Source: Saccharothrix sp. NRRL B-16348 (GTDB lineage Bacteria > Actinomycetota > Actinomycetes > Mycobacteriales > Pseudonocardiaceae). From it: DNA of 64,000 nt. Below the pieces are notes generated by a model. The model did no database searches. It was not told the DNA's origin and saw only the letters and a program-made list of their open reading frames with translations. Position 1 is the first letter of the stretch. Each line of letters begins with the position of its first letter. Below are positions 8,970-57,492 of this stretch, piece by piece. The position numbers and the translations under genes are program-made. Where the stretch lies: assembly GCF_001280085.1 (NCBI RefSeq), contig NZ_LGED01000024.1, positions 93,822 through 157,821 of the forward strand. Direction: 5' to 3'.

Positions 8970-9518
8970 TCACTTCTTCGCAAAGCGCTCGGAGGACGGG
9001 ATCAGGGCCGTCCGGTGGCCGGAGTCGGCCAGCAGCGCGGCCCGGTTCGCCCCGAGCGGCTCGTCCATGATCTTCGCGTGGATCTTGAGGATCGCGTCGA
9101 TCAGCATCTCCGGCCGCGGCGGGCAGCCGGGCAGGTACATGTCGACCGGCACGACGTGGTCCACGCCCTGCACGACCGCGTAGTTGTTGAACATGCCGCC
9201 GCTGGAGGCGCACACACCCATGGCCAGCACCCAGCGCGGCTCGGGCATCTGGTCGTAGATCTGCCGCAGCACCGGCGCCATCTTGTTGGTCACCCGGCCC
9301 GCGACGATCATCAGGTCCGCCTGGCGCGGCGAGGCGCGGAAGACCTCCATGCCGAACCGCGCGAGGTCGTAGCGCGGACCGCCGGTGGTCATCATCTCGA
9401 TCGCGCAGCAGGCCAGGCCGAAGGTGGCCGGCCACAGCGAGGACTTGCGGGTCCAGTTGACCAGCTTCTCCACGCTGGCGAGCAGGATGCCGTTCGGGAG
9501 CTTCTCTTCGAGACCCAC
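8970..9518 (-). CDS. nuoB: NADH-quinone oxidoreductase subunit B (cluster N2)
   Basis: NuoB carries the terminal 4Fe-4S cluster N2, which hands electrons to menaquinone. The 182-residue protein shows the adjacent cysteines of [11 protein letters not shown], the [16 protein letters not shown] segment and the last ligand in PGCPPRPE. It lies 12 bases downstream of nuoA. Length and motif spacing are normal. Confidence 0.98.
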
Positions 9519-9530
9519 TGGTCTTCCCCC

Positions 9531-9896
9531 TCAGTTCCAGTCGAGGCCGCCGCGACGCCACACGTAGGCGTACGCGAAGCCGACCGTCGCGACGAACAGT
9601 GCGATCTCCACCAGGCCGAACAGGCCGAGCCGGTCCGCGGAGACCGCGAAGGGGTAGAGGAACACCATTTCGATGTCGAACAGGATGAACAGCATCGCCG
9701 TGAGGTAGTAGGCGACCGGCATGCGGCCACCGCCCACCACGGGTTGCGGCGACGGCTCGATGCCGCACTCGTAGGCGTCGAGCTTCGCGCGGTTGTAGCG
9801 GCGGGGACCGATGTACGGCGCGGCCGTCACCGAGAACAGCGCGAAGGCCCCGGCGAGGACGAACATCAATACGAGGGGGAGGTAAGGGTCCAGCAC
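9531..9896 (-). CDS. nuoA: NADH-quinone oxidoreductase subunit A
   Basis: NuoA is a small three-helix membrane subunit and the first gene of the nuo operon. The likely start is the GTG at 9896-9894 (VLDPYLPLVLM), with AAGGA about nine bases upstream. An in-frame ATG at 9935 would add a charged 13-residue head unlike the family. The conserved segments are KLDAYECGIEP and FDIEMVFLYPFAV. The product is 121 residues. The leader upstream holds the Rex operators. Confidence 0.95.
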   Translation of the reverse strand: MLDPYLPLVLMFVLAGAFALFSVTAAPYIGPRRYNRAKLDAYECGIEPSPQPVVGGGRMPVAYYLTAMLFILFDIEMVFLYPFAVSADRLGLFGLVEIALFVATVGFAYAYVWRRGGLDWN

Positions 9897-10011: not shown

Positions 10012-10029
10012 TTGTGAAACACTTCACAA
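10012..10029. promoter_or_regulatory. Rex operator 1 of nuo
   Basis: TTGTGAAACACTTCACAA is a perfect inverted repeat with a four-base spacer; the flanking C and G extend the arms to eight bases. It matches the Rex operator consensus TTGTGAA-N4-TTCACAA known from Streptomyces. The rex gene is in this window at 56643-57398. High NADH would release Rex and raise nuo expression. Confidence 0.9.
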
Positions 10030-10043
10030 GGCATCTCAGCCGG

Positions 10044-10061
10044 TTGTGAACTGATTCACAA
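10044..10061. promoter_or_regulatory. Rex operator 2 of nuo
   Basis: TTGTGAACTGATTCACAA is a second perfect match to the Rex operator. Its centre is 32 bp from that of operator 1, about three helical turns, so two Rex dimers would sit on the same face of the DNA. It begins 12 bases downstream of the -10-like TACACT. Confidence 0.9.
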
Positions 10062-10073
10062 GACCTGAGGGTC

Positions 10074-10079
10074 AGTGTA
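10074..10079 (-). promoter_or_regulatory. -10-like hexamer of nuo promoter
   Basis: TACACT on the minus strand fits the actinobacterial TANNNT -10 pattern. It would start transcription near 10067, just before Rex operator 2. No good -35 hexamer is visible 16-18 bases upstream. The same arrangement, a -10 then 12 bases then a Rex site, occurs at menJ. Confidence 0.4.
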
Positions 10080-10195
10080 GAACGTCACACAGAGGCGTGA
10101 CGGGCACCCCCAGCATATGCGCTGACCTGCACTTTCTCGGTGCAGATCAACAGTTGGAAGACCCGTCCGTGAACGGGAGCACACCGAAAACGAAA

Positions 10196-10221
10196 CAGCG
10201 CCGACTCCCAAGTCGGCGCTG
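10196..10221 (-). terminator. rho-independent terminator of menJ
   Basis: An 11-bp perfect stem (CAGCGCCGACT / AGTCGGCGCTG) with a four-base loop is followed on the minus strand by a U-rich run (TTTCGTTTTC). It lies 20 bases after the menJ stop and separates menJ from the nuo promoter region. Confidence 0.85.
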
Positions 10222-10241
10222 CGTCGGTTAGCGGAGGCCCG

Positions 10242-11519
10242 TTAGGCCGTTGGGGCGAGTTTCGTCGCGGCGGTGATGATGCGGTCGAACGAGTCGCCGT
10301 CCTTCGGGTCGTAAAGGCCCGCGAGCAGCTTCAGGACCAGCTTCATCAGGGTCTTGCGGGGCAGCCCGTACTTGGTCGCGGTGCGCATGACCGCGGGGTT
10401 GCCGATGAGCTTGCTGAAGACGTTGCCGAGCCGGTAGTAGCTGCCCAGGGCCTGTTCGATGCGCACCGGGTAGCCGTGCAGCGCGCGTTCACGGCTCGCG
10501 CCCTGGCGGGCCAGCGCCTGCACCGCGGACTCGGCCGCGATCCGGGCCGACTCCATGGCGTAACCGATGCCCTCGCCGTTGAACGGGTTCACCATGCCGC
10601 CCGCGTCGCCGACGAGCAGCAGGCCGTCGCGGTAGTGGGGCTTGCGATTCAGGCCCATCGGCAGGGCCGCGCCGCCGATCTTGCTCGTGGCGTTCTCCTC
10701 GCGGAAACCCCACTCCTCGGGCGTGCCGTCGAGCCAGCTCTTGAGCAGCGCTCGGTAGTCCGTGGTGCCGTAGGCCTTCGAGGTGCTGAGGATGCCGAGG
10801 CCCACGTTCACGGTGCCGTCGCCCATGCCGAAGATCCAGCCGTAGCCGGGCAGCAGGACGTCGTTGGCGCGGTCCCACAGCTCCAGGTGCGACTCCAGGT
10901 AGTCGTCCTTGGTGCGGGGGCTCGCGTAGTAGCGGCGGACCGCGACGCCCATCGGCTTGGCGTCGTCCTTCTGGATGCCGACGCTCAGGGCCAGGCGGGC
11001 GCTGACGCCGTCGCAGGCCAGGACGAGCGGCGCGCGGAAGGTGACCGGGGTCTTGTCCGGGCCCTGCTTGGCCGTGACGCCGACGACCCGGCCGCGCTCG
11101 ACGACCGCGCCGGTGACCGTGGTCTGCTCGTGCAGCCGGGCGCCCGCCTGCACGGCGGTCTTGGCCAGCATCTCGTCGAAGTCCTGGCGGGGGCGGACCA
11201 CGCCGTAGGGCGGGAACGTGGCCAGCTCGGGCCAGTCCAGCTCCAGCGTGACGCCGCCGCCGACCACGCGCAGGCCTCGGTTGTGCAGCCAGCCGGCTTC
11301 CTCGCGGGTGTCGATGCCCAGGTCGATCAGCTGCTTGACCCCGCGCGGGGTCAGGCCGTCGCCGCACACCTTCTCGCGCGGGAAGGTGCTCTTCTCCAGC
11401 AGCACCACGTCCAGGCCCGCGCGTGCCAGGTAGGTGGCCGCGGTGGAGCCCGCGGGCCCCGCCCCGACCACGATCACCTCGGCGTCCTCGCCTGCCTTGC
11501 GGCGGCTGGGAGTCGTCAT
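10242..11519 (-). CDS. menJ: geranylgeranyl reductase family flavoprotein, MenJ-like menaquinone reductase
   Basis: This 425-residue FAD protein belongs to the geranylgeranyl reductase family. It has the N-terminal dinucleotide-binding motif VGAGPAGSTAATYLARAG, followed by LLEKS, and the second FAD motif LLVGDAGGMVNPFNGEGIG. In Mycobacterium the homologue MenJ (Rv0561c) saturates one isoprenyl unit of menaquinone and lies close to menG and mgtA, as here. I infer the same role: making partly hydrogenated menaquinone of the kind typical of this family of bacteria. AGGAG lies just before the ATG. A Rex-like site overlaps the leader. Confidence 0.85.
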   Translation of the reverse strand: MTTPSRRKAGEDAEVIVVGAGPAGSTAATYLARAGLDVVLLEKSTFPREKVCGDGLTPRGVKQLIDLGIDTREEAGWLHNRGLRVVGGGVTLELDWPELATFPPYGVVRPRQDFDEMLAKTAVQAGARLHEQTTVTGAVVERGRVVGVTAKQGPDKTPVTFRAPLVLACDGVSARLALSVGIQKDDAKPMGVAVRRYYASPRTKDDYLESHLELWDRANDVLLPGYGWIFGMGDGTVNVGLGILSTSKAYGTTDYRALLKSWLDGTPEEWGFREENATSKIGGAALPMGLNRKPHYRDGLLLVGDAGGMVNPFNGEGIGYAMESARIAAESAVQALARQGASRERALHGYPVRIEQALGSYYRLGNVFSKLIGNPAVMRTATKYGLPRKTLMKLVLKLLAGLYDPKDGDSFDRIITAATKLAPTA

Positions 11520-11528
11520 CCCCGCTCC

Positions 11529-11546
11529 TTGTGCCCGTGTTCACAA
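11529..11546. promoter_or_regulatory. Rex-like operator in menJ leader
   Basis: On the minus strand the site reads TTGTGAACACGGGCACAA: one half is a perfect TTGTGAA and the other is GGCACAA instead of TTCACAA, so 12 of 14 consensus positions match. It ends 10 bases before the menJ ATG, next to the ribosome binding site. It starts 12 bases after a -10-like TAGACT (11564-11559), the same distance as at nuo. Confidence 0.6.
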
Positions 11547-11558
11547 AGTCCGAGGCGA

Positions 11559-11564
11559 AGTCTA
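11559..11564 (-). promoter_or_regulatory. -10-like hexamer of menJ promoter
   Basis: TAGACT on the minus strand would give a start site near 11552, upstream of the Rex-like site. No convincing -35 is seen. Confidence 0.35.
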
Positions 11565-11615: not shown

Positions 11616-12347
11616 CTAGGCGGTGGGGTCCGGTGCGGCTTCGGGCGCGGCTTGGGGCGGTGCGGGCTTCGTGCCGCGGTGGAGGGCGACCATGCCGCCG
11701 GTGAGGTTCATCCAGGCGACGTCCTCCCAGCCGGCGCGGGCCACGATCTCGCCGAGCGCGCGCTGGTCGGGCCACGTGCGCATGGACTCGGCGAGGTACT
11801 TGTAGGCGTCCGGGTTGGAGGACACGAACCGGGCGATGAGCGGCAGGAGCCGCAGCAGGTAGCGCATGTAGACGAAGCGGAACGGCCGGAACGTCGGCGT
11901 GGAGACCTCGCACACCACGAGCCGTCCGCCGGGCTTGACCACGCGGGCCATCTCGCGGAGGGCGGCCTCGGTGTCGTTGAAGTTGCGCAGGCCGAAGGAC
12001 ACCGTGACGGCGTCGAACGAGTTGTCGGCGAACGGCAGGCGCAGGGCGTCGGCGGCGACCTTGGGCACCGGCCGGTGCGCGCCGCCCAGCAGCATGCCGA
12101 GCGAGAAGTCGGCCGCCACGCACCACGCGCCGGAGGCGGCGTACTCGACCGTGGACACGGCCGTGCCGGCGGCCAGGTCGAGCACCTTCTCGCCGGACCT
12201 GGCGTCCAGCACCCGCCTGCTCCACTCCCGCCAGCGCCGGTCGAACCCGAGGGTCATGACGGAGTTCGTCCGGTCGTAGCCCTTGGCCACGCCGTCGAAC
12301 ATCTCGGCGACCTCGCGGGGGTTCTTGTCCAGACCTGCACGCGCCAT
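11616..12347 (-). CDS. menG: demethylmenaquinone methyltransferase (UbiE/MenG)
   Basis: MenG is the SAM-dependent C-methyltransferase that turns demethylmenaquinone into menaquinone, the last step of quinone head-group synthesis. The 243-residue protein shows the UbiE signatures: [19 protein letters not shown] near the start, the SAM-binding loop VLDLAAGTA, and [21 protein letters not shown] short Pro/Ala-rich tail follows residue 225. It is on the same strand as menJ, about 100 bases upstream of it. Its own upstream region is the 22-bp repeat array. Confidence 0.95.
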
Positions 12348-12397
12348 GCCGGAAGCCTAAGTGACGCCCCCAACCACGCGACCCGAACCCTGAGGAC

Positions 12398-12610
12398 CGC
12401 GTGTCCCACACTCCGGTCGCACGTGTCGAACACTCAGGACCCGCGTGTCGAACGCTCAGGTGCCGCGTGTCGAACGCTCAGGACCGCCGAGTTCAACGCT
12501 CAGGGCCACGGGCTGGCACTCGAACGTTGAATTCAGGGGTCCTCAACGTTCGACACGCGGCACCTGGAGGTTCGACACGCGCGACCTGAAGGTTCGACAC
12601 GCCGGTCAGG
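12398..12610. repeat. 22-bp tandem repeat array in two opposed orientations
   Basis: Five forward units have their cores at 12401, 12423, 12445, 12467 and 12489, exactly 22 bp apart; the core is GTGTCGAACGCTCAGG with small variations. After a centre containing CGAACGTTGA (12521-12530) and its reverse complement (12543-12552) come three reverse units with GTTCGACAC at 12548, 12570 and 12592, again 22 bp apart. The whole array could fold into a large stem-loop. It fills the gap between a glycosyltransferase stop and the menG start. There are no unique spacers, so it is not CRISPR. Short open frames across it look spurious. Confidence 0.9.
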
Positions 12611-56642: not shown

Positions 56643-57398
56643 TCACGGGCGAATCACCACCCCGTCCACACCGATGCCGTTGACCACGTCACCGGCGGCC
56701 TCGTCAGCCCGTCGCGCGACGTGGAACGACAGGATCTGCATCTCGACCGCCAGGTCGACCTTGCGCACTTCGACGTAGTCCGGCACTTGGAGCACGACGG
56801 GTGCGAAGTTCAGGATGCACTGGACTCCGGCGGATACCAAACGGTCGCAGACGGCCTGAGCTGCCTGTGGGGGTGTCGCGATGACCCCGATCGAGACCTC
56901 GCGCTCCGCGCAGACCGACGTGATGTCGTCGATGTGGTTGACCGGAATGCCGCCTACCGGCACTCCCGTCAGGTCCGGGTCGATGTCGAACAGCGCGGCG
57001 ACCGGGAAGCCGCGGCTGGGGAAGCCGCCGTAGTTCGCCAGCGCGTGACCAAGATTACCGATGCCGACGACCGCCACCGAGTGCTTGCGGGTGAGGCCGA
57101 GGATCCGTTCGATGTGGCTGACGAGCACCTCGACGTCGTAGCCGACGCCGCGCGTGCCGTACGAGCCGATGTAGGACAGGTCCTTGCGGAGCTTGGCCGA
57201 GTTCACCCCGGCCGCGCCCGCCAGTTCCTCGCTGGAGATGGTCGTCACGCCCTGCTCGACCATGCCCGAGAGGACGCGGAGGTAGACCGCGAGCCGCGCC
57301 ACCGCCGCCTCGGGAATCGCGCGCGCCCGCTCCCGGACGTCGGCGGGCGCTTCCGGGCTGGTCACGACACCGTCACCCTCGCCCCGCTGAGCCGCCAC
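56643..57398 (-). CDS. rex: redox-sensing transcriptional repressor Rex
   Basis: Rex senses the NADH/NAD+ ratio: it binds its operators when NADH is low and leaves when NADH is high. The 251-residue protein has the winged helix ([20 protein letters not shown], residues 52-71, then [18 protein letters not shown]) and a Rossmann domain with [17 protein letters not shown] at about residue 110. The start is GTG 57398 with GAGGAG seven bases upstream; ATG 57416 lacks a ribosome binding site. It heads the hemA-hemC-hemD operon, as in Streptomyces. Its operators are found at nuo, at its own promoter and probably at menJ. Confidence 0.96.
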
Positions 57399-57474
57399 GC
57401 TGGAACTCCTCGACATCCGTCGCACTGACCCGCCGGGTACCGCCACCAGCGGAGTGATGCACCCACCGTACCGC

Positions 57475-57492
57475 TTGTGAACGCTTGCACAA
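57475..57492. promoter_or_regulatory. Rex operator upstream of rex-hemACD
   Basis: TTGTGAACGCTTGCACAA matches the Rex operator with one mismatch in the right half. It lies 77 bases upstream of the rex GTG. On the minus strand a -10-like TACGGT (57470-57465) follows directly, so bound Rex would cover the -35 region. It indicates autoregulation. Confidence 0.8.

Follow-up and report, generated by a model that had tools for sequence, protein, structure and literature searches.

A putative Rex operator before a menJ-like reductase gene in Saccharothrix and other actinomycetes

In many actinomycetes the menaquinone side chain is partially saturated; why this is so, and whether the saturation is adjusted, is an old chemotaxonomic puzzle. 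The locus described here raises the question of whether the redox-sensing repressor Rex controls a gene for a likely side-chain reductase as well as the complex I operon (nuo). We analyzed a window of 64,000 nucleotides from Saccharothrix sp. NRRL B-16348 (contig NZ_LGED01000024.1, positions 93,822 to 157,821), and compared it with its own genome, with other genomes of its family (Pseudonocardiaceae) and with a sample of its class. Our best reading, to which we assign a probability of about 0.8, is that the menJ-like gene has a functional Rex operator immediately after its predicted transcription start, and that this continues what looks like an older joint control of menJ and nuo, with menJ keeping a weaker operator of its own where the two are split.

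The site and the genes around it

The features of the window are collected in Table 1. The palindrome before the menJ-like gene reads TTGTGCCCGTGTTCACAA on the forward strand and TTGTGAACACGGGCACAA on the strand of menJ (11546-11529). Its mismatches to the consensus TTGTGAA-N4-TTCACAA are at positions 12 and 13, and our re-check gave the same count of matching positions as the original prediction. We regard it as very likely a Rex operator. It starts shortly after a -10-like hexamer, which places it in or just after the promoter, the transcription start being a predicted one. A consensus scan revealed no full sigma-70-type promoter at menJ, and its -35 element is therefore not recognizable. 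At the other end, the operator stands 9 bases upstream of the ATG and runs directly into the ribosome-binding site AAGGAG (11530-11525; CACAAGGAG), with which it shares its final AA. This sharing of letters is also observed in several other genera.

Table 1. Features of the window discussed in the text (positions are those of the window; bits are scores on the named protein family models)
Feature	Position	Strand	Remarks
nuoB	8970..9518	-	homologues in 197/200 family genomes
nuoA, first gene of the complex I operon	9531..9896	-	GTG start assumed
Second putative Rex operator in the nuo leader	10012..10029	.	perfect match
Putative Rex operator in the nuo leader, promoter-proximal	10044..10061	.	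perfect match
-10-like hexamer of nuo, TACACT	10074..10079	-	12 bases upstream of the operator at 10061-10044
Hairpin like an intrinsic terminator, behind menJ	10195..10222	-	12 pairs and a T-rich tail
Geranylgeranyl-reductase-family flavoprotein, putative menaquinone side-chain reductase (menJ-like)	10242..11519	-	425 aa
Rex-operator-like palindrome in the menJ-like leader	11529..11546	-	12/14 consensus positions
-10-like hexamer of menJ, TAGACT	11559..11564	-	12 bases upstream of the menJ operator
menG, demethylmenaquinone methyltransferase	11616..12347	-	NF001241, 365.2 bits (cut-off 327)
rex, redox-sensing repressor	56643..57416	-	NF003992, 376.6 bits (cut-off 226)
Putative Rex operator in the rex leader	57475..57492	.	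13/14 consensus positions; GCACAA-type half-site as at menJ

The gene of the repressor itself is present in the window. Its product carries the Pfam domains PF06971 and PF02629 and matches solved Rex structures (e.g. 3ikt), and rex is near-universal in the family (198 of 200 genomes). The menJ-like gene is preceded directly, on the same strand, by menG, and orthologues of nuoA were found by tblastn at the same place in relatives. In the intergenic stretch that adjoins the 5' end of menG (12397-12607), two arms of about 80 bases are 84% complementary and consist of 22-bp units around GTGTCGAACNCTCAGG. This unit occurs at 59 places in the genome (reversed control: 0) and represents a dispersed intergenic hairpin repeat.

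The gene had been called menJ, and its product assigned to the saturation of the menaquinone side chain. Membership in the geranylgeranyl reductase family holds (TIGR02032, 248.5 bits, above the curated cut-off of 158.8), but the protein reaches only 249.6 bits on the NCBIfam model for MenJ (NF045655), under the curated cut-off of 700. It is the best match to this model in its own genome, ahead of a distant protein at 59 bits, and proteins of the sister family reach 603-800 bits. The best local alignments with the top scorers in six sister-family genomes show 33-39% identity. In a tree, the protein falls in a class-wide group with streptomycete and Micromonospora proteins, and the sister-family proteins lie across long branches, whose joining is unsure. 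Its closest named relative, in Saccharothrix luteola, has 97% protein identity. We infer both the name and the reaction from the family and from the neighbours menG and nuo, which make side-chain saturation the likely function.

The menJ leader in the family and in the class

The protein was found in 193 of 200 genomes of the family. We searched 110 of the corresponding leaders, which represent 41 of 46 genera and comprise the 30 best-scoring loci and 80 others selected manually, with one to a few for each genus; the loci of named relatives overlap this set and were excluded from its counts. The search covered positions -300 to +30 or +40 and used a 12-position core, with the reversed pattern as control. 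The menJ operator was present with at most 2 mismatches in 67 of the 110 leaders (1 mismatch in 60 and 2 in 7), and the control in none, its matches never having under 3 mismatches. The 43 leaders without a site at this threshold had 3 mismatches (3 leaders) or at least 4 (40 leaders). By genus, the site was found in every sampled genome of 20 genera, in some genomes of 4 and in none of 17. Two positions were unconstrained in this search, and their letters agree with what is required of a Rex site: position 7 is A in all 67 sites, and position 12 is T in 59 of them.

Within the genus (11 genomes), all 12 of the half-site columns compared are invariant, as against 1 of the 6 spacer columns. The stretch upstream varies as well, although the columns were aligned without gaps, which exaggerates the change there, and because the right half overlaps the ribosome-binding site, the conservation of the last two positions could partly reflect translation. 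The original prediction had also noted the same 12-base distance between a -10-like hexamer and the site at menJ and at nuo, and took this shared geometry as an argument against chance. Both spacings were re-found, and the hexamer does recur in relatives: a TANNNT motif precedes the site by 3-15 bases in 66 of the 67 family leaders that have one (control TNNNAT: 8 of 67). The exact spacing, on the other hand, is not conserved. We rejected a constant distance of 12, since the genus shows three distances in its 11 genomes: 11 bases in eight of them, 12 in ours alone and 13 in the remaining two.

Outside the family the site is frequent too. In the class sample, the protein occurs in 87 of 118 genomes (own genome included), from which we retained 80 leaders of 30 other families; the loci in G201, G203, G216, G273, G278 and G297, mostly partial matches, and second copies were omitted. 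A site is present in 66 of these 80 leaders (no mismatch in 9, one in 39, two in 18; reversed control 1 of 80), and 26 of the 30 families have at least one leader with it. Here position 7 is A in 66 of 66 sites and position 12 is T in 65 of 66. The menJ leaders of relatives, which had been proposed as the place to look for conservation, thus bear this part of the prediction out in both samples. A clade without the site is the family labelled f20, whose proteins group with Streptomyces in the tree and which we read as the streptomycetes: its 7 menJ leaders all lack the operator and a neighbouring nuoA. The loss of rex, taken as a negative control, did not track cleanly with the loss of the site: rex went undetected in 5 class genomes, of which 2 have no site and the other 3, only 73-94% complete, retain it.

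In all 66 class loci with a site, nuoA lies directly downstream of menJ on the same strand, and the gap between the two genes is 36-428 bases (72 class loci where it could be seen). Between the two genes, no further site with 0-1 mismatch was found in any of the 66; at 2 mismatches, 3 of these loci have one there. An operator followed by menJ and nuo is probably the older arrangement, and not a late extension of Rex control; we take it as older on the basis of its frequency, as the commonest arrangement outside the own family in our sample. This changes how the original prediction is to be read. The operator that it described at menJ is there, but redox control was probably not extended from nuo to menJ as an addition, given a single operator ahead of both genes throughout these loci.

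In the family, menJ and nuo are found in several states. Among the 110 leaders, 25 have the menJ operator only and nuoA adjacent, 22 have operators at both genes, 35 have the nuo operator only, and 4 have neither, with nuoA adjacent. The script reported 24 leaders in which menJ and nuoA are not directly linked, and 21 remained after we set three aside: L073, whose sequence stops with its contig, and two others (L101 and L106) where a nuo-type operator downstream indicates that nuoA is probably just past the fetched stretch. In 17 of these 21 genomes, from 7 genera, menJ keeps its operator. Judged by the coordinates of nuoB and menJ, the two loci are in these 17 genomes on different contigs (5), on opposite strands about 7 kb apart (1), about 19-20 kb apart (2), or about 2-6 kb apart on the same strand (9). 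We fetched the nuo leaders of 15 of them, and all 15 have a site of their own with 0 or 1 mismatch.

The close linkage elsewhere gives some weight to a different reading, on which the operator matters for nuo alone: menJ would simply be where the nuo unit begins, and the menJ site of our genus would be a remnant that does nothing for menJ itself. Selection could indeed act on nuo alone in the 66 class leaders with a site, where nuoA directly follows, and in the family the 35 leaders mentioned above show that the menJ operator has been lost from many genera in which nuo has one of its own. We nevertheless find this reading unlikely, since it is at odds with the 17 unlinked genomes, and with the own genus, whose menJ operator is kept in 11 of 11 genomes although a hairpin lies behind menJ and the nuo leader carries two perfect operators. 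The presence of operators at both menJ and nuo after their separation is the strongest sign of selection on the control of menJ itself. The simpler proposal that menJ owes its operator to nothing but its place at the head of the nuo unit was rejected, as it does not explain the unlinked genomes that retain one.

A terminator scan at menJ found 1 hairpin against a shuffle mean of 1.3, which is not significant when taken alone, and for this reason the case for a terminator rests on the comparison within the genus. Most of the 11 genomes have, at the corresponding position, a hairpin with the same core and with paired changes; L014 lacks a long hairpin, and in our own window the script picked another one, of 13 pairs. 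Taken together, it looks like a terminator splits menJ from nuo in this genus, each half having its own operator. Across the family, the median gap between menJ and nuoA is 354.5 bases where both operators are present versus 165 where only that of menJ is. Very long perfect or near-perfect hairpins, of 24-31 pairs, lie between menJ and nuo in another genus (g16; L098, L099 and L100).

The operators at the two genes differ in strength of match. Within the family, none of the 67 menJ sites matches the 12-position core in full, versus 95 of 111 nuo sites, and of the 37 genomes that have both, 31 have the weaker match at menJ, 6 have equal matches and none has the stronger match at menJ, these counts coming from related genomes and not representing independent events. 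The way in which the match is weakened varies: the right half is of the type GCACAA in the own genus and its near kin, and the left half of the type T(C/A)GTGA elsewhere. In our genome, the right half is accordingly the poor one, and it holds both mismatches. In the class, 9 of 66 menJ sites match the core in full, which confines the rule of a weaker menJ operator to the family. In a few loci (L320, L324, L326, L327 and the menJ leaders of genera g17, g2 and g11), nuo and menJ share a left half of the type TCGTGA and match equally well.

Genome-wide counts and the identity of the regulator

Statistics from the window alone were too weak to assess the site: with up to 3 mismatches we found 10 matches, against a mean of 5.2 and a maximum of 14 in shuffled sequences, which is not striking. 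We therefore used counts in the whole genome in addition to the comparisons above. In its 10,894,815 bases, the 14-position pattern with at most 2 mismatches occurs at 7 places and the reversed control at none; base composition alone would lead to about 1.2. The 12-position core with at most 1 mismatch occurs at 9 places (reversed control: 1). Five of the 7 places are at nuo (two), menJ, rex and a wblE-type gene. The other two (L008 and L344), viewed as raw frames, have no obvious respiratory link and may be due to chance. The wblE-type place (L006, 1501-1518; G000:C213:14685-14702) matches 13 of 14 positions and has a sensor kinase gene adjoining, as at wblE of S. avermitilis. A WhiB-like frame of 84 aa starts 66 bases past it, and we named it wblE from its sequence and position.

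The core recognized by the Crp/FNR family, TGTGA-N6-TCACA, resembles that of Rex, and our 12-position core fits both. The menJ site (GTG-N6-G-N-CAC) also fits what we take to be a Streptomyces Crp motif, which counts in favour of a regulator of this family. That such a regulator binds the site is nonetheless very improbable in our view: nearly all relatives have, at the free positions that flank the core, the A and T of Rex sites, and the same kind of site occurs at nuo, rex and wblE, all of them proven Rex targets in S. avermitilis according to passages of PMC5355995. A chance resemblance, to which the two deviating positions and the unremarkable loose count in the window might point, is scarcely credible for a site that is conserved across many genera and families while its spacer letters change, and whose controls are near zero.

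Proposed control and comparison with known systems

The direction of the proposed control follows known Rex biology: the repressor is described in passages of PMC5355995 as binding when NAD+ prevails and leaving its sites as NADH rises. When NADH is scarce, Rex would sit on about +6 to +23 of menJ and RNA polymerase would be held at the promoter; that a repressor so placed should block the polymerase is suggested by analogy with footprints in S. avermitilis. When NADH goes up, for example when oxygen is short, Rex would be released and the menJ-like gene expressed. In the older state, one operator over a menJ-nuo unit would cause complex I and the putative enzyme for its quinone partner to be made together. 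In the genus studied here, nuo would be parted from menJ by the terminator and by a second promoter, which carries two perfect operators, and menJ would retain the weaker operator; this should mean looser repression than at nuo, or release at a lower level of NADH.

A broader version of this proposal is possible, though we hold it only tentatively: Rex control of a quinone side-chain reductase together with complex I would be old and class-wide, and the menJ operator, once split off and weaker, would be released at a different level of NADH. If so, the NADH load would govern both the enzyme that supplies the quinone pool with electrons and how saturated the pool is. The conserved arrangement suggests that the menaquinone carrier may be adjusted together with respiration. 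With a putative Rex operator before a likely reductase in 26 of 30 outside families, the control of quinone saturation becomes testable, and the family offers natural contrasts, with genera that have the operator on menJ only, on both genes or on nuo only, and genera in which the genes are apart.

We found no description of Rex control of a menJ-like gene in the literature searched, where no single paper mentions 'Rex' together with 'geranylgeranyl reductase'. The principal comparison of Rex regulons (Ravcheev and others 2012) and RegPrecise lay outside the scope of this search, and an earlier description is therefore possible. The Rex targets named in passages of PMC5355995 and PMC8981147 on Streptomyces include atp, cyd, nuo, rex-hem, hppA, ndh2 and wblE; neither 'geranylgeranyl' nor 'menaquinone' appears in the main text of PMC5355995.

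The closest known system is the Rex regulon of S. avermitilis and S. coelicolor, which, as far as passages of PMC5355995 and PMC8981147 describe it, has the same operator, the same repressor and the same targets nuo, rex and wblE. According to passages of PMC5355995, Rex of S. avermitilis protects sites that match as few as 12 of 14 positions (atpI and nuoA1), its footprinted rex site, TTGTGCACGCGTTCACAA, has an altered half-site of the same kind as at menJ, and its protection of -3 to +25 at cydA1 resembles the placing of the menJ site. An argument from operator strength similar to ours was made for nuo and atp with the proteomics of S. coelicolor, in passages of PMC8981147. The own genus differs from the streptomycetes in the operator at menJ, which all 7 of their leaders lack.

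On the side of the enzyme, the mycobacterial menaquinone reductase MenJ named in passages of PMC12724333 shares with the protein studied here the geranylgeranyl reductase family and the probable reduction of a menaquinone side chain. The two are separated by a long branch, with 33-39% identity, and our protein scores far below the MenJ cut-off. A ggr gene of M. smegmatis is reported in the same passages to be activated by NapR, and not repressed by Rex. A parallel in gene order is the ggr-nuo-ubiE cluster of Actinomyces oris. The passages of PMC5478893 on this cluster are silent on Rex or an operator; they place ggr next to nuo and near ubiE, as in our locus, and report a demonstrated link between quinone, complex I and the cell surface.
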